Positions 22,156 through 53,062 of a stretch of 64,000 nucleotides of DNA are shown in pieces; the stretch's first letter is position 1, and the number at the start of each line of letters is the position of its first letter. Position numbers and translations under genes: made by a program. The DNA is from Scenedesmus sp. ARA3. Lineage: Eukaryota; Chlorophyta; Chlorophyceae; Sphaeropleales; Scenedesmaceae. The notes under the pieces are model-generated. The model saw only the letters and a list, made by a program, of their open reading frames with translations, was not told where the DNA came from and ran no database searches. The stretch is from NCBI GenBank assembly GCA_004335835.1, contig RWJK01000386.1, positions 27,532 through 91,531 on the forward strand, read 5' to 3'.

Positions 22156-24433
22156 ATGAGTGCACACCTGCCAGAGCAGCAGCTGCAGCTGCATGCACAG
22201 CAGGCAGGGCCAGTAGTGACACAGGCAGTAGCACCCCATGGCGACCACTTTGCTGCAGCTCTCATGGGATTAGCGGCATCGGCATTTGGTCAGGCAGGCA
22301 GTGTCCGCACACACCCTTGGGTGGCTCCACTCAAAGTCGAGCCCAGTGTGCAGCAGCACTCTTTGATCAATGACCAGCAGCAGCAGCTGTCAGGCAACTG
22401 GGCAGTGGCAGCAGCAGCAGCTATCGCAGCCAATGGCAGGTGAGATGTCATCTTCGATTGAAGCTGTGCTGGCGTCTTTGTGTTCCATGCTTGGTGCTTG
22501 TCGGGATCTGTGCCATAGCAGCTCCTCAAGCGCATGTTGCAGCCTGCAACCTGTGCAACCCACACAGCCACATGCGCCGGCAACTGCTCAGTGTATCTCA
22601 GCATCTGCGCACAAACATACCAGTATCAAGTGTTGTATCGCCTGCTGTAGGTGTTATCTGGCATCGGTGGCACATCTTGTTTGGGACAACTAGCTGACAC
22701 ACCTCCACCTGTGCTTGCACATCCTGCTTGCTTCAATCTGCTCTTTTGCGTTTGATCTCCGCCTGCTTTCGTTTGCTAACCCTATCACCCCGTTTGCAGC
22801 ACTGCGGATCAACCGCCTCCAGCAGCAGCAGCAGCAGCAGCGCCACAGCCGCCGCAGCTGCCTGTGCGCCGCAACAGGCGCAAGCCGCTCACTACCACCA
22901 GCACCAGCGGCATCGAAACCGCCAGCAGCTACGCGGCACCCCTTCCGCGGCAGCAGCCAGCTGCCAACAGCAACAGCAATGGCAATGTCGTGCTGAGTCA
23001 CCATGCAGCAGCAGGGGCAGCAGCTGATGCTGAAGCGAGTGGATTTGCTGAGGCTGACATGGTAGATGCAGGGGACCCAGCCGATCCAGACTTTGACTTG
23101 TATGGCGCAGATATAACAGCAGCAGCAGACGGCAGGCGGGGCAGGGGTAGGGGCCGAGGGCGCGGCGGCAGGCGCGGCGGGCGCGGCACTGGCAGCGCTG
23201 CTCCCTCAGCACGCAGGAAGCCTCCCGCAGCAGCAGCAGCAGCAGCAGCAGCAGTGCCTGCTCCAGCAGTGGCGGCAGCAGCAGCAGCAGCAGCAGCAGC
23301 GGCGGCAGCATCAGCAGCAGAGGCCGCTGCGGCAGCGGCTGCGTACAGTGGCGATGCCATGAGTGACGGCACTGCAGGCTCGCTGTGTGGCACGGCAGGT
23401 GGCAGTGGCAGCGGCGGCTATGGAGACTTCTCAGGGCTGGGCCTGGGGCTGGACGATGCTGCTGCTGCTGCCGCTGCTGCTGCCAGCCGCAGCAAGCAGG
23501 ACCGGCTGAAGGAGAAGAATCGCCTGGCGCAGCGGCGCTTCCGGGCGCGGCAGAAGACAATGCTTGAGCAGATGCAGGTCCGCATGGACGACCTGGCGAA
23601 GCAGGTGGGTGCGCAAGTGTAAAGCGGCTCTTTGGCTGCTTGTGTTCTTAGAGGCGCGTGCTAGCTGCCATTGAGGAAAGCAGATGCAGGTCCGCATGGA
23701 TGACCTGGCGAAGCAGGTGGGTGCGGGAGTTAAGTTTGTGGTTGGTTTGGTACAGCGACGCGCACGGCTGTGGGTGGTTTGGTACAGCGACGCGTACGGC
23801 TGTTTGTGTTGTTTGAGGCGCGTACTGGGTGCCACCCTTGAGGTGAGATAGCCTGCACGCGTGATACTGATCATGCTGTGCAGACTCAGTCAGCATGACG
23901 TACGGTTTGTGAAAACGCACGCATGGGCGCTCTGGGCGGTGATTGACGCTTGCTGTGCTTGTGTTGTAACCGCACTACCTTTCTCTGACCTTCAGTCTCG
24001 TTGCATGGCCTATTGCCATGGCATTTTTTCGCTATGTATCTACTGTTGAATGCTGTGTGCACACAACTGGCTGCAGGTGGAGCAGGGCACTGTGGACTTA
24101 TCCTCTCTGCGGAAGGAGAACGTGCTGCTGCGCAACATTGTGCAGGACCAGCAGAAAGCGCTGCTCGCCGCAGTTGCGCAGCAGCAGGAGCAGGGCGAGG
24201 CGCTTGACACGCAGGACCCTGACCAGCAGCAGCAACAGCAGCAGCAGAACGATGCTGCCGGCATGCCTGTTGGCACTGCTAAGCAGCTGCAGCAGCTGCA
24301 GGAGCTGTACCAGGCTCAGATCAGGCTAGATGAGGAGCAGCAGGCTGCAGCGGCAGCTGTGGCAGCAGCAGGTGCTGGAAGGGTAGCTGCAGCAGCGGCA
24401 GCGCTTCCTGTGCAGCAGTGGATGCTCTGCTGA
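22156..24433 (+). CDS. bZIP transcription factor, Yap/Pap1-like basic region
   Basis: Nuclear DNA-binding dimer. Exons 22156-22439, 22800-23604, 24077-24433; phases 2 and 0 agree; 481 residues. Exon 1 starts MSAHLPEQQ. Exon 2 has an RG-rich basic stretch (RGRGRGRGRGGRRGGRG), Ala and Ser runs, then the basic region KQDRLKEKNRLAQRRFRARQ with the invariant N-x7-R. The zipper begins MLEQMQVRMDDLAKQ and crosses the intron into VEQGTVDLSSLRKENVLLRN. NRLAQRRFR fits the NRxxQxxFR signature of fungal Yap/Pap1 factors better than the NRxSAxxSR signature usual in plants. Exon 3 ends in Q- and A-rich sequence and TGA. The 5' ATG is the first in the exon; a longer 5' end is possible. Confidence 0.88.
23679..23725 (+). 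repeat. intronic copy of the bZIP exon 2 donor edge
   Basis: 47 bases at 23567-23613, which span the end of exon 2 and its donor, recur here with one change, 112 bases downstream and inside the intron. The flanking GAGGCGCGT.. and GGTTTGGTACAGCGACGCG blocks are also duplicated up to about 23850. Confidence 0.9.
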
Positions 24434-26325: not shown

Positions 26326-28745
26326 CTACACACCATACTTCAGCAGGAACTTCACTTCCTCATCCACAGCCTGCTGGAACCAGGGTGCATTGTAGATGTC
26401 AAAGTGGCCGCAGTCAAACGTGGCCAGGGTAGCGTTGACCGCCTTGCGCTGTGCAGCCTGTGCTGCTGCATAAGGGCACAGCCCATCCTTCTTGGCTGCA
26501 AGCATTTGGCATTGCGAGAAAGAGGCGTGGGCAGCTCATCAGTAATTTTGTCAAAGCAGACAAGCAGCAGCAGGGCTGGGGTCCTCAGGCAGGCGGCAAG
26601 CAGGGTGAGCTGTGCGGCCGGCAGTGCGGCACTGACGTGTGTACCGCTGGTGCAAGCGCAGCTGGCCATCCGGCCTCAAAAGCGCAGCACATACTGCTGT
26701 ATTACTGGAAGTCCTGGCACTGCATATGAGGGTGTTGCAGATGGCCAAACTCTTGCTGCGGTGAGCTGGGGTTAGGCCACACTCCCAGCTGCCAATGCTG
26801 CAAGCATGCCCGGCTGTACCACAGCACAAACAGGTTCAGCATCCCACCTGCCACGATCAGGATGGGTGCTGTGGCTGCATGAATGCGATCAATTGGGCTG
26901 TAGGTGCCCATAGCAGGGTCTGATGCCAGACATGCCCGCGTCACAAACTTGCGCCACGACGCACTCTGCGCAGCAGCAGGTGCGCAGTCAATGCGGGTTT
27001 GTTGGTGTTAGCAACATGGCTGTGGGGGTTGTACATGGCATTGTCAGTGCCACACCCGCACAACTGCAAGTTATCCGGCAGCAATGCAGCCCTCCAACTG
27101 CCAAAGGAGCTGCTGCTGCATGTGTGAGATCAAGCTGCAACCAGCTTTGCTGATCATGCTCGTTATATAAGCCACAGCTGAGCATGCATGAGTGCATGCG
27201 TGCAGGGCGCTGCTGGAAACATGAATGCCTCACGTTGCGTAGCAGCTGACATCATTCAGAAAAGACGACGCACAGCCACGTAAGGCGCTGTGACACACGT
27301 GCCGGTTATGACACAGCATACAGCGCCCCATGCTTGTGTAGCAGCTCACCTGAGCAGGGCTGCCGCTGCTGTTTGCAATGCTGAGGCCTTTGTACTGCAG
27401 GTATGCAGCCAGCTCTGTATCATGCAGCTGCATGATGGCCAGACTGCCTGTAGGTCCAGCCTGCAGCAGCAATGCCCAGGCAACCAAGCATCAGGCAGAA
27501 GTACAGAACATGATGATGATGAGGCAGAAGTACAGCAGACAACTGAGAGGCATGCCTGTGGATTGTGAGGGCCTGTGCACACATGTAAAGAGCATTGCAT
27601 TTGGATACAATGATGCATCATGCAGCTGCATTATGTCCAGGCTGCCAGTAGGGCCAGCCTGCAGCAGCATGGCAGGCGGCAAAGTACCAGGCAGACGTGC
27701 AGCAGATGAAACGGCCGTGTGGTTACTCGCGTGTGGTGCAGGACTTCAACGTGCACATAATGACGAGCAATTGCATATGAATGTGTGCAAGCACGCTGGC
27801 AACAATCTGACAGGGCGGCTCAATCAACACATCCAGATGTAAAAGTAAAGGCGTGTGCGCATGCAGCTCCCTATGATGCTAAAGGTACCTTCAGCTGTGC
27901 AGAGGCGAGGCTGCTGGCACGCAGGCATGTTTGCAGGTTTGTCTGCAGTCAGGTTGTGTGTATTGCTGGGGCTCTACGTGCGCATGCACGAAACTGCTGG
28001 AACTTGAGGCAGCAGGCCAGCCACATCTTGACACACCGCACGCAATCCCAGCGCGTCAATACTGCTGCCGTACCCAGCAGCCTCTACTTACTCGAGATAC
28101 CTGCTGCCTTCAGTTCACCAAACTGCGAACTGTGACAGTCACCAAACAACACATCCCCACTGTCTGCCAGCCCTGCCAATGCTTGCCACACTCACCATGT
28201 AGTAGGATAGGAATGAGTTCTTACAATAGAACTCTCAGGCCCATACCAAGCCTGCCCTTGTCCTTCTCTAATTTACGCGCGGAAGAGCATAGGCTCAAGC
28301 AGGCTCGCCTGCTTCTGTTGCGTAGGACGTGTAACTTGTAACTTGCCGCACTCACCAGTGGCACATAGAGGTAGGGGCCATTCTTCTTCTCTGCTGCCCT
28401 GTCAGCCAAGCTGGCGGCTCCTAGCACGCTGTTGCCCAGCATACCCCTGTTCAGCAAGTTGAGGGAGCTGGCAAGCCTGCTGTCGAGGTGCGGCACCTGC
28501 ATTTGTGATCATGCAAAGATATGTGTATAAGTAAGTGATGACAGGCAGCACCAGGGTTGGTTGGTGGCCAGCCTGCTGTCGAGGTGCGGCACCTGCAGTG
28601 ACAAAGATGTGAATAAGATGTGTTACTAGTAAATGACTACATGCACCATCAGGGTTGGTTGCGGCGATCATGTTGATGGCTGGTATGAGGGGTCAGCATG
28701 CAAGGCTGGCAATGATTGCTGACCTTGGGTATGGCAGCAATGTTC

Positions 28746-33019: not shown

Positions 33020-35064
33020 ATGTTCAAGAAACTGTTCGGGGGCCCTCAGAAAGCCCCAGGCGCTCCGGGCAGCAGCCAGGCAGCAAATCAGACAATAAAT
33101 GCAATGCAAAGCCTTGCTGAGCGAGAGGAGCAGCTGGAGAAGAAGAAGCTGCTGCTGGAGAAGAGGATAAACGATGAGATGGAGAAAGCGCGTGACTTCA
33201 CGCGTCAGAAGAAGAAGAGCCAAGCGCTCATGTGCCTGAAGAAGAAGAAGATGTTTGAGCAGCAGCTAGAGCGTATGGATGCGCTGATCTCCCGCGTCAT
33301 GGAGCAGCGCAGCATGCTGGAGGAGCAGCAGACCACCATTGGGGTGTTGGCATCTATGCAAGACGCTGCAAAGGCGCAGAAGAAGACTATGCAGGTGGGT
33401 TGGGGCTTACAGGAAGGAAGCTGAGAGGCTAAGGATTGTCATGCAGTGCAGGTCCTGTCTGCTGACACTCCTGCAAGCATTGCAGTGCAACCCACCAACT
33501 CGCACCTGCATGCGTATGGCGTGCATGTATATTCACAGTGGCCGCTGCATCCTTTGTCAGGCTACAAAGAATGTCAGCGGCGGTTCTTGCATAGCAGCGT
33601 TGCCTGGCTGTGAAAATATACACTTGGTGCAGCAACCCAGAGGGGGGTTATTGAGAGCAAGGGGTATGCATGCAGCATCAGCCTGGCACTCTCTTGTTAC
33701 ATGGAAGGAGGCCTAGTTTCGCTTTAGCAGCTGCCATCTTGTACACTTCCTGCAAGAAAGCATGAGCAGCCATGCACTCTGTGCAACAGCAATTGCTATT
33801 GCATACGCGCTGCAATTCCAGCTCCTCCTGCAAAGCTGCGGCAGGCCAACACACTGCAGTCATCTGCACACACACGTCAGTGACCACGCATTGACGCCTA
33901 GCACACGCTGCCGTATGCTGCCACATGCTGCCATATGCTGGTACCCTTGACGCTGCCCATTTCATACTATCTTTGTCATTGCGTTGGCTGCTGCTTGCAG
34001 GAGATGAAGATCGAGGACATATGCTGCTCAAACACTGTCATACTCACCGCCATTTGCGCTGCCACATGTTGCTGCTGCTTGCAGGAGATGAAGATTGAGA
34101 TCATCGATTCCGCGCTGTGGTACACGCTGCCTTAACCTTGCCATATCCGATGTTTCCTCGTCTTGCATCTGCTGCTGCTTGCAGGAGATGAAGATCGAGA
34201 ACATCGACTCCACGCTGTTGTGCATGCTGCTCAAACACTGCCACACTCACCACCACGCTTGCCTGCTGCTTGCAGGAGATGAAGATCGAGAACATCGACT
34301 CCACGCTGGAGGAGATCCAGGAGGTGGGCGAGCAGATGCGCGTGATCAACGAGGCAATCAGCCAGCCCGTGGGCGGCTTTGCAGACATGGAGATGGACGA
34401 CCTGGAGGCGGAGCTCGCAGAGCTGGAGGCGGAGGAGCTGGACAACCAGCTGCTGGAGCCGGCACCAGGTGCGTGACATTGTTATGTGTTACTGTCAAGT
34501 AACATGATAATGTGGTGTTTGTCTACATCTTGTTGTGCTGTGTTGCAAATTGCTGCGTACACATGGAGGTGGAGCTGGAGGCAGAGGAGGTGGGCGATTA
34601 GCTGCTGGAGCCGGCTCCAGGTGCGTGTTACTTTGTTATGTTGTTATGTTCCACTGTATGTTGATTTGTAAGCATTGTTCTGCTGTACGTGTGTTGTTCG
34701 TGTATTGTGTTGCGGGCTTGCACTTCAACCCTCTGGTGCTTGCATGCTGCTGCGTCAGATCTGCTTGCCAGCTTGCTGGCTGTGGCTTCTGGCAAGTCTG
34801 CTGGTCGGGTGCTGCCAAGTTTACATGTTGCGCGCCATCAATTGCAAACTGTACGGCTGGCGCTCTTTCCATTGGAGCCTGCAGTGTTTTCTGGACAGCT
34901 GATGATCTGCCGCTGCTGTGCATGTTGTACCTGCTGCAGTGCCTGCTGCAAAGGCGCCTGGCCAGGCCCTGCCAAGTGTACCAGCAGGCAAAGTGGCAGC
35001 AGCACCGCAGAAGACGCCAGAGGAGCTGGAACTGGAAGCACTGCAGGCAGAAATGGCGCTGTGA
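33020..35064 (+). CDS. ESCRT-III core subunit SNF7 / CHMP4 (VPS32)
   Basis: Polymerises on membranes for multivesicular-body sorting, abscission and repair. Exons 33020-33394, 34276-34468, 34940-35064; phases 0 and 1 agree; 230 residues, normal for the family. Exon 1 starts MFKKLFGGPQK and carries the basic helix hairpin (REEQLEKKKLLLEKRI, RQKKKSQALMCLKKKKMFEQ). Exon 2 holds EMKIENIDSTLEEIQ and the acidic region EMDDLEAELAELEAEELDNQ. The short last exon encodes a Pro/Ala linker and ends TPEELELEALQAEMAL, the CHMP4-type C-terminal helix that binds ALIX/Bro1 in other organisms. The long intron 1 is filled with copies of the exon 2 acceptor. Confidence 0.96.
33987..34262 (+). repeat. three intronic copies of the SNF7 exon 2 acceptor edge
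   Basis: CTGCTGCTTGCAG followed by GAGATGAAGAT.. occurs at about 33987-34020, 34071-34117 and 34171-34217, ahead of the true acceptor at 34275. The third copy matches the first 29 exon bases or more. The intervening block ATGCTGCTCAAACACTG is also repeated (34021, 34224). Confidence 0.95.
34565..34632 (+). repeat. intronic copy of the SNF7 exon 2 donor edge
   Basis: GTGGAGCTGGAGGCAGAGGA.. GCTGCTGGAGCCGG.. followed by CAGGTGCGTG copies the end of exon 2 and its donor (34410-34475), about 150 bases downstream inside intron 2. An in-frame stop has arisen in the copy. Confidence 0.9.
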
Positions 35065-37871: not shown

Positions 37872-38248
37872 CTACCTGTTGCTCTGCATGCGTCCGTGCA
37901 TGGCGCCCTGCTGCTGCTGCTGCTGCTTCCCCTGGACAGCAGCCTTACCCTGCTGCTGCTGCTGCCGCATGCCGGGCCCGCCACCACCCTTCTGGCTCAT
38001 CATCGGCCGTGGATAGGCCCCCATGCCTTGCCCTGCTGCTGCCGCTGCCGCTGCTGCTGCATTGGGTGGCATGCTGGGAGGCATCATCATCAGCTGCTGC
38101 TGCTGGCCCATACCTGGGGCTCCTGACTGCGGCGGTGGCTGCCACCACGGTTGCTGCTGCTGCTGCTGCTGGGCAGGTGGTGGCCCAGGTAAGGGTCCCG
38201 AGCCTGGTGGGGGCCTAGGGCCAGGCACCTGCTGCTGCTGACATGGCC

Positions 38249-38281
<33 letters not shown>

Positions 38282-39416
38282 CAGGCGGCGGCTGACCTGG
38301 CACAAAGCCGCCAGGGTTGAAGCCCTGCTGCTGTGGCGGCACAAAACCCTGCGGCATGAAGGTGGCGTTGCTGTTGCTGGGCGGCCCTGACACAGCAATG
38401 GGCCCTCCTCCTGGCGGCCCTGGCAGCTGCTGCTGCTGCTGCTGCTGCAGATAAGGCAATCCATAGCCAGCCGCAGGTGCCGCACCAATCATACCGGGCT
38501 GTTGCAGCTGCATTGGCATCTGCATCGGCAGCTGCTGTGGTGGCAGCAGCGCGCCACTCATTGGAGGAGGCGCTGACACAGCAGCAGCAGGCATGCCTTG
38601 GGAGCCAGCAGGAGGCATCCACTGCGCAAACGACACTTGCTGCTGCTGCTGCTGAGCGTTAGGCGCTGCTGCTGCTGCTGCTGCTGGATCGCCGAAGGCT
38701 CGCAGGCTGGATAGCAGGCCTGCTGCTGCTGCCTCGATGGCTGCGTTTGCATGGGGTGCTGATCCGGAGGCCTCCAGTACTACTGGGCTTGCCTGGTCAG
38801 CAGTTTCATGCAGCGCTGCAATGATTTCCACGCCAGCACTGCAGCGGGATGATACACACAAAATGCATGAGGCAGGCAGGCAGGGGGCAGGCAGAGGAGG
38901 TGAGGAAGCAACACCTAAGGAGACATACAAGGTGCTGCAACAACTTCCACGCCAGCACTGCAGGAGATCAAGACGAAAAAAATAAAGACAGGAGCAAACA
39001 TGAACGCAGGCAGGGCAAGTAATCCAGCAGCACTTCGGAAGAGATATGTTGGCCAATCGGCAAGATACAGTGTGTCACAGATGCCTTCAGCTCCCAGCCA
39101 GTGCTACGAGCGCAGCTAGCACAAGTGAGACAGCACGCATGATCAGCACCACTCTGATCTCTTGCAGCTGTCATACAAGCATCCACACACCGCACAGCAG
39201 CGCCACGAACAGCACAGCATGTACAACACAAACTTTCCACAGGCCATAGGCAGCGCAGGATGTACACGGCATTGTACACACTGCAGGGCCGGGCTTAGAC
39301 TGCAGAGAATGCGCAAAGCAGAGTGATGCAGCAGCAGGGCCCTCACCCCTCCCTGGCACTGCCAAACTTGATCTTCACCCGGTCCCCGTATTGCGCCTTG
39401 AGCTGGGCCTCAGCAG

Positions 39417-39451
<35 letters not shown>

Positions 39452-40919
39452 AGGCCTGGCGGCTGCTGCGGCTGCCCTGGCTGCTGCGGCGGCTGGAAGC
39501 CTTGGTGGTGCCACGGCGGCTGCTGCTGCTGCTGCTGCTGCTGCTGTACCATTGAGCCTGGAGGTCCCTGCTGCTGCTGCTGCTGGGGAGGTGCAGGGCC
39601 AGGCGGAGGCTGGGGCAGAGGCTGCTGCTGCTGCTGGAATGCCACCTGCCCCTGCTGCTGCTGATGTTGGGGCGGCAGCACAAAGCCCCCGAAGCTGCCA
39701 CCTGGTGCTGGGGCCCCAGCAGCAGCAGCAGCAGCAGCAGCGGCCTGCACTCCTTCGCCTCCAGCAGCAGCAGCAGCAGCAGCGGCAGCAGCAGCGTACC
39801 GGATCATCCTGCCGTCAGCGCCCTGCGTGGCGCCGGGCGGCAGCTTCCGCTCCGGGCGGGGTCCATTGTACGGCGGCAGCCGCTGAAAGAACATGCCTGA
39901 GACGTACATGTTGGCGGCTGCCTCATCTGCTGCGCGCAGCTTGGCCTGCTGCTTGCTTGGTGCGTAGCCGTAGCCCCAGGCGCGGCCCCAGTAGTGCAGG
40001 ATGCAGGTGAGGTTGGCGTCCTTGAGGTCCTGCTTCTTGCCTGGCCGCACGTCGCCCTGCAGGCATGGATGTGTTGAAACGGCGTGTTGCAGCATGTTAC
40101 AGTATGTTACAGAATGTCACAGAGTGTCACAGTGCAGGATGCAGGTGAGGTTGGCGTCCTGCTTCTTGCCTGGCCGCACGTCGCCCTGCAGTCAAGGATG
40201 TGTTGACACGGCGTGTAACAGAATGTTACAGTGCACGATGCAGGTGATGTTGGCGTCTTTGAGGTCCTGCTTCTTGCCTGGCCGCATATCGCCCTGCAGG
40301 CATGAAGTGAAAGTTGTTGGGGACGGAGTGCCGCAGGGTGGGGCGGTGTGCTGTGGGATGATGTCCCAGGGCAGCATTTCATGGATGTGTTGTATTGACT
40401 GAAGGCTTGGTGCAGGCAGGGTTGTGTAGCAAGGGGCGTGTCAGCGGCCGGACAGGAGCAAATGTGCCCCGCACTCCATGTTTCCCCTTCTACCACATCT
40501 TTTTTCTACGGAACACTGGCATACCCCAACCCCAGCTGCTGCAGTTTCAAATCATCCTCACCGCACCTGAAACCTATGGTGTGCCTTCTTATCAGACACA
40601 CATTCCTGACAGAACGCACCGGGGCACGGAAAAAGCACCTGTTCAGACACACTTGCCCTGTAACACACCCACCTGGAACATCTGGAACGCCGGGCGCGGC
40701 CCCCTGTCATTCCTAGATAGATCCGCTAGCAGCGACGGCGCATTCTTGATGCCAGCTTCTTTCTGCAGCTGGTGCATGGTGATGGGCATAGCCCGTGCTG
40801 CCTGCTTCATCGAGCCATACGTGTAGCTGAAGCAGTCCGGGTCATTGCCTAATGCAATCAGCTGCTCCCGAGTGGGCAGCGGCATTGGCGGCACCACAAA
40901 GTTGTTCAGCTGCTGCGGC

Positions 40920-40951
<32 letters not shown>

Positions 40952-41267
40952 AGGTGGCGGTAGGGGCAAGCCGTACTGCTGCTGCTGCTGCATGTGCTGC
41001 TGCTGCTGCTGCTGCTGCGATACAGCAAGGCCGGTGAGGCTCAAGTTGGAGCCTGAGGCGGGCCCTGAGGCAAACATCTGCTGCTGCTGCTGCTGCTGCT
41101 GCTGACCTGGCATGGCTATGCCAGGTGGCAAGGGGCCACCAGCTGCCCCACCCAGGCCCCTGAAGTCAACCGTCTGCGGCTGCTGCTGCTGCTGCTGCTG
41201 CTGGCCCTGCCCCCGCATGTCCATCACAACAAGGCCGTTCCCAAACTGCTGCTGCTGCTGCTGCCAT

Positions 41268-41315
<48 letters not shown>

Positions 41316-42204
41316 AGCGGCTGTAAGCTCATGCTGCCGCCTGCAGCCGTGCCTGCGCCACTGGGCGGCAGCTGCTGCCCCGGCTGCTGCTGCTGCTGCT
41401 GCCCAGGCGGAGCCTGCCAGGCAGGGCCTGTAGCACCTGCTGCTGCTGCTGCCATGCTTGGGTTCATGATAGGGCCGAAGAACTTTGCCACTTCTGCGTT
41501 GCTGTTGATGATGGCTGCAACGCGCTGCATGACGCGGAACTTCTGGTCCCCTAGCATTGCCTTGAGCGTTGATGAAGCAGACTGCACGTTGCTGCTGTCC
41601 ACGCCTGAGCGCACCTGTGGCACAAACATCACAGCATACAGCAGCACACAGCACAGCGGTAGTTGAGTGAGCAGGTGTGCAGCATGTGGCAAAGAAGAGG
41701 GTTGATGAAGCAGACTGAACGCTGCGCTGTCCACGCTGAGCGCACCTGTGACGCAACATAACGGCGATGCGGTAGCAACACAAGCAAGGCTGCAGCAGGA
41801 TATGACGCCGCCGCACATCACTGCGACACCTAGCACAGCACGCAACCAAGTGCTCGACCAGCAGCTCACAAGACACGCGTGACAGCAGGCATTGTCCCCA
41901 TTATTTGACAAAAAAGTCACCCACCTGTGCACTGATCGCTGCAAGCACCTCCAGCAGCTGCTGCGGGCTGGCCGCATCCCTTAGCACAGCAGGAAACAGG
42001 TCATTATACACCGCCAGGTCATCAGCAGAGCCGCCGGCTGCTGCTGCTCGCTTCAGCACAGCCACCACATAGCTTGGAGGCACAGCGGGGCCAGGGACAG
42101 GCGGCCCGGCTTGTAACATGTTACTTAACGGGTGCCTCGGCGGCGGCGGCGGCCGGACAGCTGTCAGTGCCTGCTGCTGCTGCTGCTGAGGGATGCTGCT
42201 AGGG

Positions 42205-42239
<35 letters not shown>

Positions 42240-42761
42240 TGGCTCGCCCACACGCTGCTTCTTGGCTGGCCGCTCCGTACCATCGGCACCCTGTGCTGCC
42301 TCTGCTGCTGCTGCTGGTGCTGCCGCAGGCGCATTCGCAGGACTAGCGCCGTTCGTCAGTGCTGCTGCTGCCGGCCGTCCCTGCTGCTGCTGCTGCTGCT
42401 GCTGCTGTGCAGGTGCTGCTGCACCCTGCAGTGACTGAAGCAGCCCTTCGATGCTTGTCGCCAACCCGAAGTCAAATCCACCGGGCTGCTGTTGCTGCTG
42501 TTGGTCTCTGGCAGTGTCGGCACCCTGCTGCTGTGCAGCTGCGCCAGCTGCTGCTCCTGGTGCGTCACCCCCTGCTGGCTTGCTGCCTGCTGCTGCTGCT
42601 GCTGCTGCATCATACGCGACAGCAGGCACTGCCCCAGCTGCTGCTACTGCTGCTGCCCGCCGCTTGCGCGGATCGCTCGCAGCCCCCGCCCCTGCTGCTG
42701 CACCGTCCCCGCCAGGACCCCCAGCAGCAGCAGCAGCAGCAGCAGCAGCATTCCCTGCCGG

Positions 42762-42800
<39 letters not shown>

Positions 42801-45800
42801 CATCATGGTAGCGTCATTTGCAAGCAGCCGCAGGTCTGAGGCTCTGTCTTCTCGCTCTGTCTGGCCTAGTGCTGCAGGCGCTGGAAAAGATGATGTGGCT
42901 AGCAGCTGCTGCATGGGTGTGAAAGGGCTCAGGATTTCCAGAGGCAATGCCTGATACTGCTCCAGGATGCCTGCTGACACCAGGCGCGCTGCCTCCGGCT
43001 TGATGTTCTGTTGGTAGGGTTTGGCGCAATGGCAACGCAGGCAGCAGCAGAAAGAGTTTTAGCCAAGTTACAGGTCAAGGATGCCTGCTGACACCAGGTG
43101 CGCTGCCTCGGGCTTGATGTTCTGTTGTTAGGGTTTGTGGTTTAGGGTTTTTTTTCCGATGCAGGCAGCAGCAGAAGGAGGAGTGTCAGCCAAGTAACAA
43201 AACACGCTGCTCACAGGCTTCCAGGTCCGCATAGGTCCGCATTGAACTTGTGAGCGCATGGCGCATGGTGCAGCTGCACCTAACACTATGTTGCGCTCGC
43301 AATCAGCCACACTCGACAGCAACCCCTCAGCCCTACCTCACCAGGTCCAGTTCTGCGTAGAAAATGCTGCGCAGCTTGCGCAGCGTGCTGGCCAAACGCC
43401 CAGCTGTCACAACCAGATTCAAACTCCAGTTTTCAATTCAGAAACACACAGAAAAACACAAACCAGCCGCCGGCCTCACTAAGTCCAGCTCTGCGTAGAA
43501 CTTGCTGCGCAGCTCGCGCAGCGTGCTGGCCACGCGGCCCAGCTGTCACATTCAAATCCAAGTTCATTTGAGAAAACAAACCAGCCGCCGGCCTCACCAG
43601 GTCCAGCTCTGATTAGAACTTGCTGCGCAGCTCGCGCAGCGTGCTGGCCACGCACCCAGCTGTCACAACCAGAATCAACTTCACGTTCAATCTAGAAAAC
43701 AAAACACAAACCAGCCGTCAGTCTCACCAGGTCCAGCTCTGCGTAGAACTTGCTGCGCAGCTCGCGCAGCGTGCTGGCCACGCGGCCCAGCTCGCCTTCG
43801 CTGTCCCGCGCCGCGGTGTACTCTGCAGCGGGCGCGCTGCCAGGGCCCATGTCGAGTGCGGCTGCCTCCTTGTGTGGGTGGAACGGCATCACCTGCGCGG
43901 CACGCGTTATGTGACACAACGAGTAGAGCACAGCACAGGTTGAGGACAAGCGAGTACACACAATTTGACAGTGTCGAGTGCGGCTGCCTCCTTGTGGGGG
44001 TGGAACGGCATCACCTGCGCGGCACACGTTACGATGTGCAAAGTGATGCAGTATGGTGATAAGTTAGGCAAAGACAGGCAGACACACTAAAGCAGTGTCG
44101 AGTGCGGCTGCCTCCTTGTGGGGGTGGAACGGCATCACCTGTGCAGGAATGGCAGTACGGTGGCGAAACACACCGGGTGAGGAGCGCAGGCACTCACACA
44201 TTTAAGCACGGTTGCGTACGTACTAAGAAAGATACAGTGGTTCCCACAGATGTGGAAGAGCAGACAAAGACGGCATCCCTCGCTGCAGAATGACTGCAGA
44301 ATGGCTGCATGTTGATGTACAGTCCCAAAGTTTTACGGTTTTACAGTGCTCACTCTCCTTTTCTGGTCTCAGACCGTGTGTTCAACCTGTTGTGCCTCAT
44401 ACCATCCAGGATGGTGCCAGGACCCACATGTAACTATCCTCTCTCTAAGACAGCCATACCTGCAGCAGTGCCCGCCTGCTGGCCTCCTCCCACACGTCTG
44501 AGCGGTCGTCAATGATGACGCTCATGGCTGGCGTGTCCTGCTCGGGGCGCCTGGCCCGCACTGCAACCATGGCAACAGCAGCGACAGCAGCAGCAGCAGC
44601 AGGACAGCATCAGTGCAGCACTGGAAGCACGCTCAAGGCAGGCGTGCCCTGCTCGGGGCGCCTGGCCCGCACTGCAATCATGGCAACAGCAGCGGCAGCA
44701 GCAGCAGCAGCAGCAGCATGGCATCAGTGCACAGCACTGCACAAGGAGCCCCAGCCGTGCAATCCCTTGGCACACACAGTTTCTGCACCCAGCCTGGCCA
44801 CGCAGCTGCGTCCAACTGCATTTGCCATTTGGCGCCGCTTGCATACACATCTGCCAGACAGTCTGCTGTGTGCTACTCCGTCAGATGTTAATTATCCCCT
44901 GTGCCAAGACCACTAGCCACACCTGCTAGTATGCACCCAAGTCCGGTCCAGCCGCTCCTGTGTTTGTGTTTTGTGAAGAACAAGACCACCTGCACACATG
45001 CCTTCCAGCCAGCGAGCATGCTAGCCAAACAAATGCAGCACTCACTCTCATCTGTGACCATACGATCTACGCCGCAGGATCTGCCAGCATTGCCGCATAG
45101 ATCTGCTCCCAGCGCAGCACACTCAGCAGGTCCTTCTTCTGAGCGAGAAGCCCAGACACTCACCCATATGCCATGCACCCTGCAACCCCGTAACACCAAC
45201 AGTCTGCACCCGACGCTGGCCACACGTATGCTGTGTGGTAGCTTGTAGAGACCACTTGCACACCCAAGTTCCAGCCAGCTTGCTAGCCAAACATATGCAG
45301 CACTCGCTCTCAACAGCCACCATGAGGCTCTGCGCCGCAGGATCTGCCAGCATTGCCGCATAGATCTGCTCCTAGCGCAGCACACTCAGCAGGTCCTTCT
45401 TCTGAGCGAGAAGCCCAGACACTTACCCATATACCATTCACCCTGCAACCCCGTAACACCAACAGTCTGCACCCGACGCTTGCCACACGTATGCTGTGTG
45501 GTAGCTGTTAGAGGCCACTTGCACACCCAAGTTCCAGCCAGCTTGCTAGCCAAACAAATGCAGCACTCACTCTCATCAGTCACCATGAGGCTCTGCGCGG
45601 CAGGATCTGCCAGCATGGCTGCATAGATCTGCTCCCAGCGCAGCACGTTCAGCAGGTCCTTCTTCTGGGGGTGCGGCACGCACAGCATGCGCTTGGCGGC
45701 CAGCTCAGCGTGGGGGAAGAGGCTGGCCTCTGGGTCCAGCAGCCGCCATGCTTCCAGCGCATACTCCTTCTCTGCTGTGGTGCAGATGAACACCTCCCAG

Positions 45801-48800
45801 CTGCAAGGAAATTAAAGATGGAGGGAAGAGTGTGTGAATCAGAGGATGCAGTTTGGTTTCATACAGTTTGAAAAGTTGCGTGACGAAGGCGGCGGGTGCG
45901 GGGAAAATGCTGCAGAAGGTTGTTTGCATGCCAGCTCAGCGTGGGGGAAGAGGCTGGCCTCTGGGTCCAGCAGCCGCCATGCCTCCAGCGCATACTCTTT
46001 CTCTGCTGTGGTGCAGATGAACACCTCCCAGCTGCAAGAAATTGAAGGTGGGCGCAAGAATGTGTGCATGAGAGTGCAGTTGCTTTCATACAGTTTGGTG
46101 AGAAGTTGCGTGCCGAAGGCGGCAGGTGCAGGAAGAATGTGGCAAGCGGGTGCATGCTATCTCAGCATTGAGGAAGAGGCTGGCTTCTGGGTCCAGCAGC
46201 CGCCAGGCTTCCAGCGCATACTCCACGCCGCTCAAGTAGTCCTTGAGCGGTCACCGGCCCACAAGCAGTCAACACAAAGTCAACGCAGTCACACAGCGCA
46301 CGCACTCACCGCTGCTTGCGCACCGCGCCCGCGCGCACGTCCTCCACGCCGCTCAAGTAGTCCTTGAGCGGCCGCCGGCCCAAAAGCAGTCAACACAAAG
46401 TCAACGCAGTCACACAGCGCACGCACTCACCGCTGCTTGCGCACCGCGCCCGCGCGCCCGTCCTCCATGCCGCTCAAGTAGTCCTTGAGCGGCCGCCGGC
46501 CCACAAGCAGCCAACACAAAGTCAATGCAGTCACACACCGCACACACTCACCGCTGCTTGCGCACCGCGCCTGCGCGCACGTCCTCCATGCCGCTTAAAT
46601 AGTCCTTGAGCGGCCGCCAGCCCTGCCTCGGGCGCAGCAGCACGCTGGTGGACTTGGACTCCGGGTTGACCCGCGTGATGATCAAGGGCCGTCCCTGCTG
46701 CTCCAGGCGAATCACAGGCCGCGTTACTTCCTCGCCGCGCGAGTTGCGGGCCTTCTCCCAACTGCAGTAACAGCAGACAGAGAAGCCAGCAATACACCAG
46801 GTATACATCATATGTAGGCGTGAAAAGTGCAACGCAGTGGGCAGCTGAGAGCACGTGGCTGGTCGTGTTCTGCCGATGCTGTGTGTGCTGCTGCTGGGTC
46901 TGTCGTGGCGCGGGCAGGGAGTGCCAGCTGCCAGATGCTGCTGGCTGTTGCAGCTGCATCAACCACTCACGCTGGCTCCACCATGCGTGCCTGGCCCCCC
47001 GGGCCCTTCACCAGCACCCTGCACTGAGGGTCACGCCTGCAGCAGCGGCAGCAGCAGCACAGCAGCAGCAGCAACAGCAACCGAACCGCTGAGGCGTCAG
47101 GCCCCGTAGACAGCTCACGATCATTATCAATACATACATCGTGATCTACTTCAGCGACAGGATTGCCCCTAAGCAGCCTCCAAACATCCATGAACGAGAT
47201 GCAGCACCGCATAGCTGCAGCATGCCACGGGACGTGAAGCAAACCCCTCTAAGTAGAAGTCCCCCGTGTCCAAGCGGGCCTGCGGCAGCCCAGCTGCACC
47301 GCACAGTGCTCCTAAAACTCCAACCCTACGCCAAACCCAACATGAAACCCTGTTGTAGCCTCAACCAAACCCCACCTATAAACGTCCAGCATGTCAAACG
47401 CAACGTGCAGCAGCGCCGCCTCTGCCTCCAGCACTGCCTCGTGCCGATTCCAAAACAAACCCCTGCTTTCAAAGCGCCATGACAGGGCTACAGCACCCGA
47501 CAAACCTACCTGTAGAAGTCCAGCATGTCAAAAGCCGCCTGCAGCAGCAGTGCTCCAAATCCAACCCTACGCCAAACCCAACCCCGAACCCCATTGTGGC
47601 CTCAACTGTTGTAGCCTCAACCGAATCCGCACCTGTAATAGTCCAGCATGTCAAAGTCCGCCTGCAGCAGCGCAGCCTCCGCTCAAGCAGTGCGGCGTGC
47701 CGAATCCAAAACAAACCCCTGCTTTCAAAGAGCCGTGACAGGGCTAAAGCACCTGACAAACCTACCTGTAGAAGTCCAGCATGTCAAAGTCCGCCTGCAG
47801 CAGCAGTGCTCCAAACCCAACCCTACGCCAAACCCTACCCCGAACCCCATTGTGGCCTCAACTGTTGTGCCTCAACCAAATCCTCACCTGTAAAAGTCCA
47901 GCATGTCAACCTCCGCCTGCAGCAGCGCCGCCTCTGCCTCCAGCAGGGCCACAACATGATTCAAAAAAACCATGACAGGGCTACAGCACCTGACAAACCT
48001 ACCTGTAGAAGTCCAGCATGTCAAAGTCTGCCTGCAGCAGCGCCGCCTCTGCCTCCAGCAGGGCCATAACAAGATCCTTAAAAAGAGCCGTGACAGGGCT
48101 CCAGCACCTAACAAACCCCACCTGTAGAAGTCCAGCATGTCAAAGTTGGCCTGCAGCAGCGCCGCCTCCGCTCCAGCAGGGCTATAACAAGATCCTTAAA
48201 AAGAGCCATGACAGGGCCAAAGCACCTGACAAACCCCACCTGTAGAAGTCCAGCATGTCGAAGTCCGCCTGCAGCAGCGCAGCCTCCGCCTCCAGCAGCA
48301 CCCCATACCAACTCCAAATAACTGTCCTATAAGCACCATGACAGGGCTACAGCACCTGACACACCCCACCTGTAGAAGTCCAGCATGTCAAAGTCCGCCT
48401 GCAGCAGCGCCGCCTCTGCCTCCAGCAGGGCCATCTCGCAGCCCAGGGCCTGAAAGCGGCCCTCCAACTGCTCAGCTGACAGCCCCGGGGTGGGGCTGCT
48501 GTCAAGGCTGCGAAGCTCGGCTGCCTTTGACTCCCTGCATGGTCATCAATGGTGGTGACATGACTACAAACATCACATGTTGCCAACCAAGACAGAGCAA
48601 TGACATCATCAACAGTCGGTTGTAGCGTCACGGTGACGGATTGCTGCAGGGCGGCAATGGCGGGGTGATAACCCCTCATGAGGGGTTATGTTAGGCACGG
48701 CTGCCGTCCAGCCTGCGCAGCTCAGCCGCCTGTGTCCCTGTGCAGTCATCGTGTTACATACAGTTGTTGCTGTTGTTGTTGAGTTGCAAGAGGTTGCAGG

Positions 48801-51800
48801 GCAGCAAAGGTGGAGTCATCGGCACTGGCTTATGTCGCCGTGCTGATGCCATGTCAGTGCAGCACGTGGCGCAAGGGGCCGCATGTTGTCAAGCTGCAGA
48901 GGAGGCGTTGTGGCGAGGTGGCGTGTTGAGAAGGTGAGCAGGCCGACCCAGAGTATGCGTTGGCTATGAGCCGGCCGGCCCGCGGGTTATGTGCACAGTA
49001 AAAGCACGCAGTACGTGCTGCTGCCACAGTGTGCCGCGGCCAACATGCGATGATGGGCGCCGCCCAATCGGTTGTTCTGCAACATGTTAGGAACAGTTTT
49101 CACGGGCTGTGTGCTGTGTTTCAGTTTTCGTATGCATTGTTTCCCTCTGAGGCTGCTGGCTCATGCAGCAAGCTGCAGGGCAAACTCTTGCCATCATGGC
49201 ATGATGCTGTACAGCAGCACAGCAAAACACAGTAGCGTGTGTAGCTGGCAGGCACAGCATGGGCCTGGGTGTCAGCAGTCGAACGTACAGTGCGGGTGAG
49301 CGGTGCCGCTGCAGCAGTGCAGGCACTTTGAACTGCCCTGCACGTGCCATGCTTGTGAGCACACAGCAGGTGGCCTGCTGCATGTTTTCACAAGCTGGCA
49401 CATGCATAACAGTTCATGATGCTCTGCACTGCAGGTGATGCACCGCTCCTTGGGTGGCCACTCTCAATGTGCACATCGCTCCACCCACACATGTAGTACA
49501 TACAGCAACGCATTCACCTGCAGTGAGTCCAGGATTTGAAGGTGTACATCATCTGCAAAGCAGTGATGCTTTGCATGGTTTTCTAGGCGGGTGCAGGGCT
49601 CAATGCGTCACCAGCAGGAGCTTGCGTCGATGCGATCTGTGGCGCATCAAGAGGGCATGCACACAGACAAGGGACGGAGAAGCAAGGCAGCAGGCTAAGC
49701 GGGCTCAGGGACGTAATCCCCCAGGGCATTGCAACTGCGCCTGTATGCGAGCAGTGAGTAAGTCTCCACGTCTTCCAAGCAATGTCATACATGCAGACCC
49801 CGCAGCCACTGCAGCAAGCAGACATTGCCTGTGCCTGGTGTGGCTCAGAATGAGGCACACCCGCCGCATGTACTGGCGGTATGTGCATCCAAGTACGGGA
49901 ACACAGACATAAGGACATGCGATACAGATCGAGCAATAGATACGTATCAAACCGAGCACAAGATAGAGCAGCGCAAGACAGGTGGGGCTGCAGCAGTAGG
50001 CTACGTCCCTGCATGCTCAGGGATAAGCTGTGTTGAGGCGCGCATAACAGAGGGCGAGAGAACGAGGCAACAAACACACACAGTCGACGCTCAGGGACAA
50101 GAAGCACGGAGGGCACGCGGGAGAGTAACTGAAACCGCCCAAGAAGGCGGCAGTGTGTCTTCTGCCATGTAGCATGCGCAGGCTGAGCACCAGCACACCA
50201 CTGGTGAAGGAGCAGCAAGTTGCATCACTTGCTGTGCAATTGCACTTGCAAGTGCTACGCCTTTGTGTATCAAGAAAACGGGGAAAAACAGATTATACAA
50301 GCAGACAAACAAAAGGCAGCTGACAGCTGCTGCAGCATCTTGCAGCTTGCAGCATCGAAACTGCTGTAAGCTGCTGTTAAGCTCAGTGCTGTTGGCTGCA
50401 ACCTGCGAGTCGTCTCTGTGTAGCATTTTGCAGAGGCAAGGTACTGCTGGGCACACGCCAGGTGTGGCAGAGGCACGGTTGAAGCAATGGCAGCTTGCAA
50501 CAAAACAGCCACTTCAACCATACACGCCGGCAGCTGCAGCAAGCCTGGGTGCAACAGGTGCTGCACGTGCGCGCGCGACTCTGCTGAAGAAGTGACAAGC
50601 ACTCAACATATTCCTATCAGGGCAGAGATAGGAAGGCTGTGCAAAAAGCACAGCAGACGAACGCCAGATACAGATTGTTGCTGGTCTGAGCCCGCTGCTG
50701 GTGTAGCCAGGCAGCTACAACACCTGCATTTCTGCCAACCACACCCGCTTTCTCAAATGTAGTAAGAGAAACGTTCCCCGCAATGCCACGCACAACATGG
50801 CATCAGTGATGCACGTAAATGACTTGCAAAAACAGTAAGGCAACTACTCTAAACTTAAGGTTTTTACAGCAAGGCTTGTACTGCCAGGCACTCCACACAT
50901 GGGCAGACAAGCAGAGTATAAAAGAGCAGCAAGCATATGCTTGCTCAACTGCAGCCGGGGCGCAACCCCTGCACCTGCCCCGATGGCTACTGTGGTTCCC
51001 AGCACCCAACCCTCCCAACGACACTCTGCAGCCGTTGCAGCACCCATCTCCAACAGTAGTGTTGGCAGCATTGCACGCCCCAGCATATGCATGCACGCAT
51101 ATCCAAGTCGTCATCCCCCTCCCCAGCATGACTCATCCTGCAAGGCAACAGTCCTGCAAGCATCTGTGTTCCTGCAAGGGAGCAGCAGAACGATGACGCC
51201 ATGTCCTTCGCTGCCACATGTTGTTTTCCTGCAAGCACACCCCCTGCCCTCACCTTGTAGCATTGACCCTGCGGATGCGCTGCGCCAGGCTGTCTACTGT
51301 GTGCGCCATCAGCAGCGTTTCATCCAGGTCAAACACGAGCATCAGCCTGCTGAAGTGCATCACGCCAGCAGCTAGGCTCAGCAGGTGTGCAGGCACCATG
51401 TAGCCCCAGTATGCTGCTGCATACGTTGCCTTGCCTGTGTGGGTTGCGATGGGATGTGATTGGTCAAAGCAGCAGATGTAGCAGCAGGGCAGCAGGAAGC
51501 TGGTTAGAGGCATGCATATAACCATGTATGTTCAGTGCCCACTCTGCATCAGCACAACTTGCGTGGGGTCCTCGTAAACAGACAACAACACAGGGTACAC
51601 CATGACAGGACCCCAAACGATATGTTGCAACACTCGCTGTTGTGCGTGACATCCCTGCAATTGAGAACAGACATCACCGCTGACAGGAGACTTGCCAAAG
51701 CACATGCTTCAAGCAGACGAAGCTGATACAGCATGCCTGCCAAGCGGCAGTATAGCTCAGTGAGCAGCACTTGCCCGTTTAAACCACAGGCAGGACGGCA

Positions 51801-53062
51801 GCTGTTTGAAGCACCAAAACAGAGACGAAATGGTGCGGATGCGGGTGACCAGTCATGGTGATGCCAACAAGTGCAACACCAACAACAGCACTTGCAGGAA
51901 AATGCCACAGGGTTGTGGGTACACCCAGTAACAACACACAGCATGGCGCCTCCAAGCGAGCTCACAACGAGCATGACAGATGAAAAAGCATGTTGAGCGC
52001 CTCTATTAGGGCTGGTCATCAGCCACTGCTGTGCCATCCAAGTTTAGCAGGCCCAACACCAGCCGCAGAAGGGGCGCAGTGCACCGCATGACCAAGCATG
52101 TTTAGTGCAACGAATGACAAAACACTCAGCAAGAAAAACGCTTGAAAACAGCACCAATGTGTACATTGAACACATGCACATGACACAATTTGAACCGATA
52201 TACACCCCAGACCAGAACAACCAAAGTTTGAATTGAGAGGGCAACAAATACGCAGTGCCCAGCCCTTGTGTGTACCTGTCTTGACCTTCACGGGAACCAG
52301 CACCAGCTCCTTATCCAAAGCTTCGAAGCGCACCACAATGGTCTGCTGGTTCTCAAGCTGGGCCTTGTGCACCGTCTCCATGGCCGACACAGAGCTGCAC
52401 AGGCAACATGGTGCAAACAGGAAGCACATGCAGGCAACAGGGAGATGCGGTGAGGGCACATGCATGCCACGATTTTGTTTGAGCAACATGAAGCGTACAG
52501 TGAGCAGCATGTGGCGCATGTGTGCAGCTGACAGCTAACAGTGCGACATGCGTGTGACAGAGGAGTGCACCAGCACTTGATCAGCACATCGAACCCACAA
52601 CTGCATCTGTCGATTGGCTGTATGCGCTCACCTGGCATCATCAGGATCAGCGCACATGCGCACATCAGGTCCACGCTCTGCATCAAGCACAACACATGTC
52701 AAAAGCAACAGAGCAGACTGACAGAGCATCAACCAACAGCCTCACAGCAGCGGCAGCAAACACAGCATACAGGATGAAGGGCTGGGGCGGCGAGATTCTG
52801 GCGCCCATCACATCTACAAGAACATACCTCCAGCTAGGACGTGTGCAACAGCCAACGGGGGCGGCCGAGGCAGTGTGTTGTGCTCAGGAGCAGCATAAGA
52901 CCTGCAGGTTGGTAGGGGTGATGCCGTGAGAGGTCGCTGCTGTGCAGCTCTACATGTACATCCGAAACGATATCGAACCGAACAGCGATTTGACTGGCAG
53001 GAAGGCCAGTGGCACGCAACATGAAGCGCTGTCAGCGCAGCAGCAGCACGGCTACTCGCCAT
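37872..53062 (-). CDS. CPL-type RNA polymerase II CTD phosphatase (FCP1 homology + dsRBD)
   Basis: Nuclear phosphatase acting on the Pol II C-terminal repeat, like plant CPL1/CPL2. Exons, 5' to 3': to 52828, 52677-52632, 52394-52276, 51416-51254, 48534-48370, 47036-46971, 46761-46552, 45800-45571, 44560-44460, 43892-43728, 43007-41925, 41614-40673, 40056-39347, 38838-37872; phases agree over all, giving over 1650 residues. PPPLAVAHVLAG and the ENQQTIVVRFEALDKELVLV stretch match the CPL N-terminal region. The catalytic motif FDLDETLLMAHT (DxDxT) is followed by RPVIRLEQQGRPLIITRVNP, VFICTTAEKEYALEAWRLLD and MSVIIDDRSDVWEE. A dsRBD spans the 40673/40056 junction (PSLLADLSRN.., YAPSKQQAKLRAADEAA). 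Long poly-Q/A/P expansions fill the C-terminus. The 5' exon is uncertain: an open frame from ATG 53062 fits the phase, but another ATG at 53214 could start a separate first exon. Confidence 0.92.
38940..38966 (-). repeat. intronic copy of the CPL last-exon acceptor edge
   Basis: CTGCAG-TGCTGGCGTGGAA on the minus strand repeats the acceptor and first codons of the last exon (38838), about 115 bases upstream. AGGTG-rich flanks are shared. Confidence 0.8.
40100..40300 (-). repeat. two intronic copies of the CPL dsRBD-exon acceptor edge
   Basis: After the true acceptor (exon at 40056, GDVRPGKKQDLKDANLTCIL), copies at about 40194 and 40297 on the minus strand encode GDVRPGKKQDANLTCILHC and GDMRPGKKQDLKDANITCIV, each preceded by CTGCAG. 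Confidence 0.95.
41694..41755 (-). repeat. intronic copy of a CPL acceptor edge
   Basis: CACAG-GTGCGCTCAGCGTGGACAGC on the minus strand copies the start of the exon at 41614 (VRSGVDSSNV), with one base lost so the copy is out of frame. It lies about 135 bases upstream. Confidence 0.85.
43075..43130 (-). repeat. intronic copy of a CPL acceptor edge
   Basis: AACAG-AACATCAAGCCCGAGGCAGC on the minus strand repeats the start of the exon at 43007 (NIKPEAARLVSAGIL), about 117 bases upstream, and includes the flanking CCTAAC sequence. Confidence 0.95.
43141..43150 (+). repeat. telomere-like TTTAGGG motif in a CPL intron
   Basis: GTTAGGGTTTGTGGTTTAGGG spans 43127-43147 and contains one exact and one degenerate TTTAGGG unit. 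Confidence 0.5.
43325..43670 (-). repeat. three intronic copies of a CPL donor edge
   Basis: The end of the exon at 43728 (TLRELRSKFYAELDL then gtgag) recurs at about 43345, 43490 and 43610 on the minus strand, each ~40-80 bases long. Two keep a gt donor; one has a mutated codon context. Confidence 0.92.
43975..44145 (-). repeat. two intronic copies of a CPL acceptor edge
   Basis: GCAG-GTGATGCCGTTCCACCC (VMPFHPHKEAAALD, true exon at 43892) is copied at about 44010 and 44139, with the CACTCGACACTG end included. Confidence 0.95.
44640..44685 (-). repeat. intronic copy of the CPL IIDDR-exon acceptor edge
   Basis: TTGCAG-TGCGGGCCAGGCGCCCCG on the minus strand repeats the acceptor and first codons of the exon at 44560, about 120 bases upstream. 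Confidence 0.92.
45030..45410 (-). repeat. two intronic copies of a CPL donor edge
   Basis: The end of the exon at 45571 (GCGGCAGAGCC..GTGAC.., then gagtgagtg) and the intron after it recur at about 45290-45400 and 45040-45140. The unit is roughly 260 bases and includes the TTCCAGCCAGC and CGTAACACCAACAGTCTGCA blocks. Confidence 0.92.
45915..46240 (-). repeat. intronic copies of the CPL WEVFICTT exon acceptor edge
   Basis: The first ~90 bases of the exon at 45800, encoding SWEVFICTTAEKEYALEAWR, are copied at about 45930-46035 with the TTGCAG acceptor. A shorter third copy (LEAWRLLDPEASLF) is at about 46160-46220. Confidence 0.95.
46240..46551 (-). repeat. intronic array of a CPL donor edge, ~121-bp period
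   Basis: The 3' end of the exon at 46552 (LKDYLSGMEDVRAGAVRKQR then gtgag) with its following intron is repeated, giving donor copies at about 46310 and 46430 in addition to the true one. A partial copy precedes at about 46205-46250. Confidence 0.95.
47250..48366 (-). repeat. eight-copy intronic array of a CPL donor edge, ~117-130-bp period
   Basis: The true exon ends ALLQADFDMLDFYR at 48370 before gtggg. Copies of its last 40-60 bases with a gt donor begin at about 48235, 48118, 48000, 47882, 47760, 47629, 47505 and 47373; a faint ninth is near 47260. Most copies keep CAG-gt and a recognisable MLDFYR reading. Confidence 0.97.
48535..51253 (-). other. 2.7 kb CPL intron
   Basis: Longest intron of the gene, between the DLDET exon and the ESKAAELRS exon. 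Near its 3' end, at about 48690-48737, is one copy of the next exon's acceptor edge (CAG-GGACACAGGCGGCTGAGCTG). Elsewhere no nested gene or known repeat was recognised. Confidence 0.6.

Follow-up and report, generated by a model that had tools for sequence, protein, structure and literature searches.

Introduction

Internal tandem repeats situated at exon-intron boundaries have been described in human paralogs (PMC2812944), and the gain of introns by tandem genomic duplication is the subject of a review (PMC3443670) and of a study in Drosophila (PMC2891723). Small tandem duplications are also a product of staggered-break repair, as reported for mouse and human cells in which breaks with ~43-50-base overhangs were induced (PMC8355091). 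In the alga Tetradesmus obliquus, the GC content is given as 57% and the mean intron length as 462, which exceeds that of the four other algae tabulated (PMC5966456).

Here, we analyse a stretch of 64,000 nucleotides from Scenedesmus sp. ARA3 (G000:C255:27532-91531; GC 0.574), hereafter the window, which belongs to an assembly of 87.3 Mb in 1567 contigs. An initial annotation of this DNA had noticed that the edges of exons, together with their splice sites, are copied in tandem inside the adjoining introns. We followed this up in the window and in a sample of the assembly, and edge copying looks like a common way of intron lengthening in this genome.

Sequence material and gene models

Outside the window, 25 stretches of ~10 kb were sampled, 20 picked by contig number and 5 chosen (2 on the window's own contig and 3 around matches to the NIF family). 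The stretches L014 (GC 0.22) and L024 (GC 0.31), possibly organelle or foreign DNA, were excluded from the counts, which left 23 stretches (18 picked by contig number and the 5 chosen) with 229,769 bp. The gene finder was trained on the CPL gene of the window and afterwards self-trained on the sample; gene models outside CPL are predictions. It recovered recognisable proteins on the sampled stretches, of which glutamate 5-kinase was matched using an edited query, while a CAD-like dehydrogenase, a GDSL lipase, a protein kinase and a prolyl hydroxylase were named by eye only. It also turned some of the intronic copies (decoys) into false small exons. Removed ahead of counting were repeats of low entropy or rich in CTG/CAG words, copies with more than 3 gap bases, exon parts shorter than 24-28 bases, and false CPL exons of 100, 79 and 72 bases. 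At the gathering threshold, Rfam gave zero matches in the whole window.

Junction arrays in the CPL gene

The CPL gene encodes a relative of the FCP1/NIF-type phosphatases, and its model rests on an open frame and on the homologue P0001:

37872..52677, minus strand: CPL gene, 13 exons
52677-52632, 52394-52276, 51434-51254, 48534-48370, 47036-46971, minus strand: exons 1-5
46761-46552, 45800-45571, 44560-44460, 43892-43728, minus strand: exons 6-9
43007-41925, 41614-40673, 40056-39347, 38838-37872, minus strand: exons 10-13

When the outermost splice sites are used, the 13 exons join into a single open frame of 1,660 codons, a length counted without an assigned start codon, and all introns are of the GT-AG type. 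The homologue (EukProt, 989 aa) shows 64% identity across 50% of a 739-aa query and was aligned exon by exon. A small exon at 49552 was dropped from the model, because it breaks the frame and P0001 passes directly from exon 3 to exon 4.

About a dozen CPL edges with one to eight extra copies had been proposed, and this is borne out: 11 of the 24 internal exon edges carry 1-8 extra copies in the adjoining intron, 24 copies in total. A strict ungapped search, requiring at least 19 of 26 exon bases, returned 22 copies at 10 edges, all but one of which keep GT or AG (21/22; the exception is a GC at 45308); a borderline match at 48739, which has no splice signal, was left uncounted. Gapped searches added one copy each at the exon-11 acceptor (41564-41782) and at the exon-7 donor, for the latter its second. 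The arrays, all on the minus strand, are as follows:

47304..48434, minus strand: exon-4 donor array, true edge 48370, eight GT copies at 48240, 48122, 48003, 47888, 47766, 47633, 47510 and 47376
46221..46623, minus strand: exon-6 donor array, true edge 46552, copies at 46431 and 46310, plus a partial unit
45699..46224, minus strand: exon-7 acceptor array, true edge 45800, copy at 46031
44983..45667, minus strand: exon-7 donor array, true edge 45571, copy at 45308 (GT changed to GC) and one more
44518..44739, minus strand: exon-8 acceptor array, true edge 44560, copy at 44671
43850..44144, minus strand: exon-9 acceptor array, true edge 43892, copies at 44138 and 44014
43336..43792, minus strand: exon-9 donor array, true edge 43728, copies at 43598, 43480 and 43342
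42955..43199, minus strand: exon-10 acceptor array, true edge 43007, copy at 43121
41564..41782, minus strand: exon-11 acceptor array, true edge 41614, one copy (gapped search; missed by the ungapped search)
39993..40304, minus strand: exon-12 acceptor array, true edge 40056, copies at 40293 and 40185
38815..38963, minus strand: exon-13 acceptor copy, true edge 38838, copy at 38957

The exon-6 donor array directly abuts the exon-7 acceptor array (46215-46230), with GGAG common to both at the join, and the original middle of that intron therefore seems lost.

Eight of the 11 duplicated edges (the exon-4 and exon-6 donors, both edges of exon 7, both edges of exon 9, and the exon-10 and exon-12 acceptors) are single in P0001, a count that leaves the edges of exons 8, 11 and 13 unjudged, as their alignment to P0001 is weak. 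At the exon-4 edge, which P0001 has once, seven of the eight copies map onto the same residues as the true exon. Likewise, edges duplicated in the DNA of ThiC, uL30 and IF-3 occur a single time in solved relatives of these proteins. Thus, the view that the outermost site alone joins the conserved reading frame stands in the cases where it can be checked, namely the 1,660-codon CPL frame, P0001, ThiC, uL30 and IF-3.

The regularity of this layout, with donor copies downstream and acceptor copies upstream of the true site, does not speak for a special system. If a segment made of an exon end E and an intron start I is duplicated in tandem, the result is E I E I. Whatever caused the duplication, the first E continues the exon and the last I continues the intron, and the additional E necessarily falls within the intron. 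At acceptors, the arrangement is simply mirrored. Intronic copies are thus what any tandem duplication spanning a splice site must leave.

Other genes in the window

Copies had also been claimed for five other genes of the window. The claim holds for the bZIP, SNF7 and hydrolase genes; in the CWC25-like gene the copy lacks the GT, and in the SBP gene the units, seen by eye, include few exon bases.

23567..23725, plus strand: bZIP, donor edge 23604 and one copy, with 38 exon bases and GTGGGTGCG in common and unrelated intron parts
33984..34646, plus strand: SNF7, copies of the acceptor edge 34275 and of the donor edge 34468
28469..28661, minus strand: hydrolase, acceptor edge 28496 and one copy
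20890..21090 (approximate), minus strand: CWC25-like, donor edge 21056 and a 26-base exon copy ~150 bases inside the intron, without GT
1143..1347, plus strand: SBP, tandem units whose ends take in a few exon bases of the donor near 1120 (by eye)

The CWC25-like gene has in addition an in-frame tandem repeat (19347-19690, unit ~111-114 bases) within a predicted coding exon, which is an in-exon counterpart of the junction arrays and not itself a junction array.

Frequency across the assembly and excess at junctions

In the 23 stretches outside the window, 63 local arrays were found, 50 of them with a predicted exon edge inside; the 18 stretches picked by contig number account for 57 of the arrays (edge in 45/57). 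Copies accompany 44 exon edges there, a few of which are doubtful, in ~0.23 Mb, corresponding to ~9% of the 483 predicted edges. The same search, run on order-3 Markov surrogates of all 24 sequences, found no hits at all. TRF, an independent finder, reported 30 arrays with a period of at least 55 in the 24 sequences, and 21 of these contain a predicted edge. Five of the 13 arrays without a predicted edge resemble junction arrays by eye (L018:8051, L019:9658, L021:9546, L026:5407 and L033:3003), and ~8 of the 63 look deep-intronic or intergenic, a judgement made partly by eye. Therefore, the proposal that edge copying is a general route of intron growth holds insofar as edge copies occur, and lengthen introns, in many genes of the assembly; however, not every array lies at a junction.

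Because decoys can themselves be predicted as exons, we also reduced each array to one unit and predicted the genes again. In this collapsed test, 35 of the 63 arrays lie at an edge against 11.3 +/- 3.0 under uniform placement, and 0 of 2000 simulations reach 35; inside the window, the figure is 13 of 16 against 2.4 expected. A stricter null confines the duplications to genes and places them in introns only, whereupon 47% would touch an edge with a unit of 120. Against it, 50/63 (p 1e-7) and the TRF count (21/30, p 0.009) remain in excess, whereas the collapsed count of 35/63 is not significant (p 0.11).

These figures bear on whether duplications arise preferentially at exon-intron junctions, through breaks, pausing or exon-anchored exchange between diverged alleles, beyond what tolerance would leave behind. 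The 35 to 50 arrays at predicted edges, set against 11.3 under uniform placement, speak for such a preference, as does the hand-made CPL model, in which 11/11 arrays lie at edges (P 8e-6 against the introns-only null; P 8e-4 leaving out the two longest introns). The anatomy of the units points in the same direction. They are centred near the junction: in 44 arrays with 80-180-base units, the unit measures 122 +/- 18 bp, made up of an exon part of 48 +/- 17 and an intron part of 74 +/- 18, and in 9% of arrays the exon part takes up more than half of its possible length (KS against uniform, p 3e-9; p 2e-4 in the 21 young arrays). It should be noted that this anatomy omits exon parts shorter than 24 bases, and that arrays of that kind exist (L021:2918, with ~4 exon bases by eye, and SBP, with few). 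Unit lengths overall are mostly 100-140 bp and sometimes 200-260. On the other side, the strictest count loses significance against the introns-only null, the gene models are predictions, and a conserved true exon keeps its copies recognisable longer. We consider a true excess of arrays at junctions likely, and the small number of deep-intron arrays together with the non-uniform exon part suggests that mere tolerance may not be the whole story; that junctions are themselves preferred sites of duplication is a serious possibility, which we put somewhat short of probable and which would add targeting to the mechanism of tolerated duplication proposed below.

Telomere-like heptamers (e.g. AGGGTTT) are denser in the non-coding sequence of arrays (27 in 19.6 kb, against 74 in 196 kb outside, with repeated copies counted as they stand), and occur in the intron parts of arrays at 47304-48434 of the window, L010:2634-2718 and L019:4733-4795. 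Separately, L032:7930-8800 holds four copies of an exon end, or of most of an exon, in a gene predicted to encode a protein similar to FCP1-type phosphatases; two of these copies were called as exons by the gene finder, and the array may thus be a true tandem exon duplication.

Kinds of copy

Among 48 neighbouring pairs whose exon parts are <10% diverged, the intron parts are homologous in 31, which are head-to-tail units, and show no homology, under the criterion applied, in 17. In 50 two-copy arrays, the match length comes within 5 bases of the period in 8, and most of the others are shorter, through decay or a spacer. Copies without intron homology possibly reflect filler DNA from repair, exchange with a diverged allele, or turnover of the array.

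Spacers of this kind are also informative about the gain of introns, either by tandem duplication or as mobile introns (introners), with decay afterwards. Although introns have been documented to arise through tandem duplication (PMC3443670), a new intron formed in this way should have two matching ends, and in the present arrays a single edge recurs, confined to its own side of the intron. As for introners, three spacers taken from copies without intron homology each found only their own match in the whole assembly, in a search that skips very common words; these three are the spacers tested. Intron gain by either means is a very improbable account of the arrays.

Divergence and splice signals of the copies

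GT or AG is kept in 86 of 100 decoys (53/62 donors and 33/38 acceptors). Young copies keep the splice dinucleotide in 18/19 cases without and 37/42 with intron homology; for old copies (at least 12% diverged), the values are 13/19 and 14/15, respectively. In 21 stacks with at least three usable copies, the private changes at codon positions 1:2:3 number 5:5:19 in the true copy, 18:12:25 in inner decoys (45% at position 3; p 0.03 against the simulated 32%) and 16:25:38 in the decoy farthest from the true edge. A simulation using the substitution spectrum of the intron parts gave an expected position-3 share of 43% for differences between the two when the true copy is constrained and the decoy neutral. 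Old copies fit this share both with (63/140) and without (82/168) intron homology, and young copies lie above it (81/134 and 51/80, respectively; p 3e-5 and 1e-4 against 43%, ~0.01 each against 50%, copies within one stack being non-independent). The young pattern would be produced by silent variation that existed between alleles at the time of copying; constraint on the decoys would produce it as well, but should then persist in old copies. A lasting coding constraint, suggested by a few pairs with all-silent differences, is weakened as an explanation by the near-neutral old copies and by inner decoys that come close to neutrality.

One way to read the signals is that the copies are functional, as auxiliary splice sites or small exons under selection. 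The retention of GT or AG in most decoys, and in nearly all young ones without intron homology, would agree with this, as would the silent-site bias of young copies and the in-phase small exons that the gene finder predicts in several of them. However, only 1/31 donor-type and 1/24 acceptor-type copies have, right at the end of the copied stretch (the one position scored), the second splice site that a cassette exon needs; young copies with homologous introns keep the signal about as often, and old ones without homology keep it less often. Old copies look neutral, and homologous proteins have a single copy. The missing second splice site and the single copy in homologous proteins also speak against the copies being real tandem exons. 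We regard a function of this kind as quite improbable, and find nothing to support the suggestion that the decoys serve alternative isoforms: a second site is as rare as stated, and old copies drift neutrally.

A second reading concerns how the copies are made. Young copies have mostly silent differences, keep their splice dinucleotide and are often followed by an unrelated intron, which suggests that new copies could come from exon-anchored exchange between diverged alleles. Exon ends would then be a hot spot of copying centred on the junction, introns would time and again gain the whole exon end of another allele, and the spliceosome would put up with this by picking the shortest exon at both ends. 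We hold this to be rather unlikely.

The same silent differences and unrelated introns would fit two haplotypes, and, in an assembly of 1567 contigs, diverged haplotypes or reads could have been strung together. Against such an artefact, stacks of 3-9 copies show graded divergence, at least one edge-bearing array is present in 14 of the 23 stretches outside the window, and for the two loci tested a second locus in the assembly was not found. We have little doubt, therefore, that the arrays are not products of assembly.

Proposed mechanism and splice-site choice

On the evidence of the DNA, the arrays are probably best explained by local tandem duplication across junctions. Such duplications would be tolerated since the outer splice site still functions, and the inner copies would afterwards decay almost neutrally. 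A short stretch straddling a donor or an acceptor would be duplicated in place, by a DNA-level event such as staggered-break repair or replication slippage. The outermost splice site would remain joined to the intact exon and yield the old mRNA, such that the duplication is tolerated and the intron becomes longer. Repeated rounds would build the stacks, whose inner copies, splice signal included, would decay roughly neutrally. This explanation is favoured by the head-to-tail units with homologous introns in 31/48 close pairs, by the share of arrays at predicted edges (50/63, 35/63 after collapsing, 21/30 with TRF), by the single edges in solved relatives, by the near-neutral old copies and by the private changes, which fall on position 3 more strongly in the true copy (5:5:19) than in inner decoys (18:12:25). 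Two observations weigh against it: young copies differ at position 3 more than neutral decoys should, and 17/48 close pairs have no intron homology, contrary to what plain tandem duplication of that age predicts.

A first-come rule would select outer donors but inner acceptors, whereas the choice of the shortest exon leads to the outer site at both ends. Since copies survive at acceptors as well as donors, this organism may splice by exon definition, under which the shortest exon would win and the spliceosome would use the outermost sites.

If RNA confirms this use, the genome would offer a large natural experiment on splice-site choice and a direct test of exon definition, with thousands of edges (extrapolated from 44 edges in ~0.23 Mb) bearing near-identical competing sites in known order. 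It would also make visible an ongoing route of intron growth, which is usually hidden since introns diverge fast. In addition, gene finders tend to make the copies into false exons, and annotations of such genomes may therefore carry spurious repeats.

Comparison with known systems

The initial annotation knew of no described system with this layout. In the literature searched (titles and opening abstracts, mostly non-subscription), we found no stacks of exon-edge copies in a green alga or as a common growth mode of existing introns. Repeat arrays have been linked to introns before: Zhuo 2007 reportedly describes human introns derived from tandem arrays, and Hellsten 2011 is said to deal with AGGT duplication. 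Both are said to concern intron birth.

The arrays possess the feature that defines tandem duplication straddling a boundary, in that copies at 11/24 CPL edges comprise the exon edge with its splice site and adjoin the original, and the intron part is homologous as well in 31/48 close pairs. Nearly all copies lack, at the exact end of the copied stretch, the second splice site that marks mutually exclusive exons and tandem exon duplication, the three spacers tested are not among many similar introns across the genome as introners are, and the two ends of the introns do not match each other as in intron gain by tandem duplication.

Among the published accounts, PMC11782384 shares with the alga direct repeats near intron-exon borders; these are described as 4-30 bp repeats compared between the two borders of an intron, whereas in the alga one border is repeated within the intron. 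The duplications described in PMC8355091 are likewise head-to-tail, sometimes with extra inserted bases, and provide a candidate mechanism, but the units of the alga are ~120 bases long and clustered at exon edges. Boundary repeats and introns from tandem duplication are in print (PMC2812944, PMC2891723, PMC3443670), though as described there for new introns or changed exons. The accounts of intron gain (PMC3443670, PMC2891723) have in common with our arrays a local tandem duplication involving splice-like sites; there, a duplicated exon piece with AGGT gives rise to a new intron with matching ends, whereas in the alga the intron pre-exists and one of its edges is repeated. The human repeats (PMC2812944) also straddle exon-intron boundaries and interact with splicing. 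Those repeats are described as varying among recent paralogs, where they form novel introns or change exons; in the alga, an existing intron is lengthened by stacks of one edge, and this is seen in many genes.
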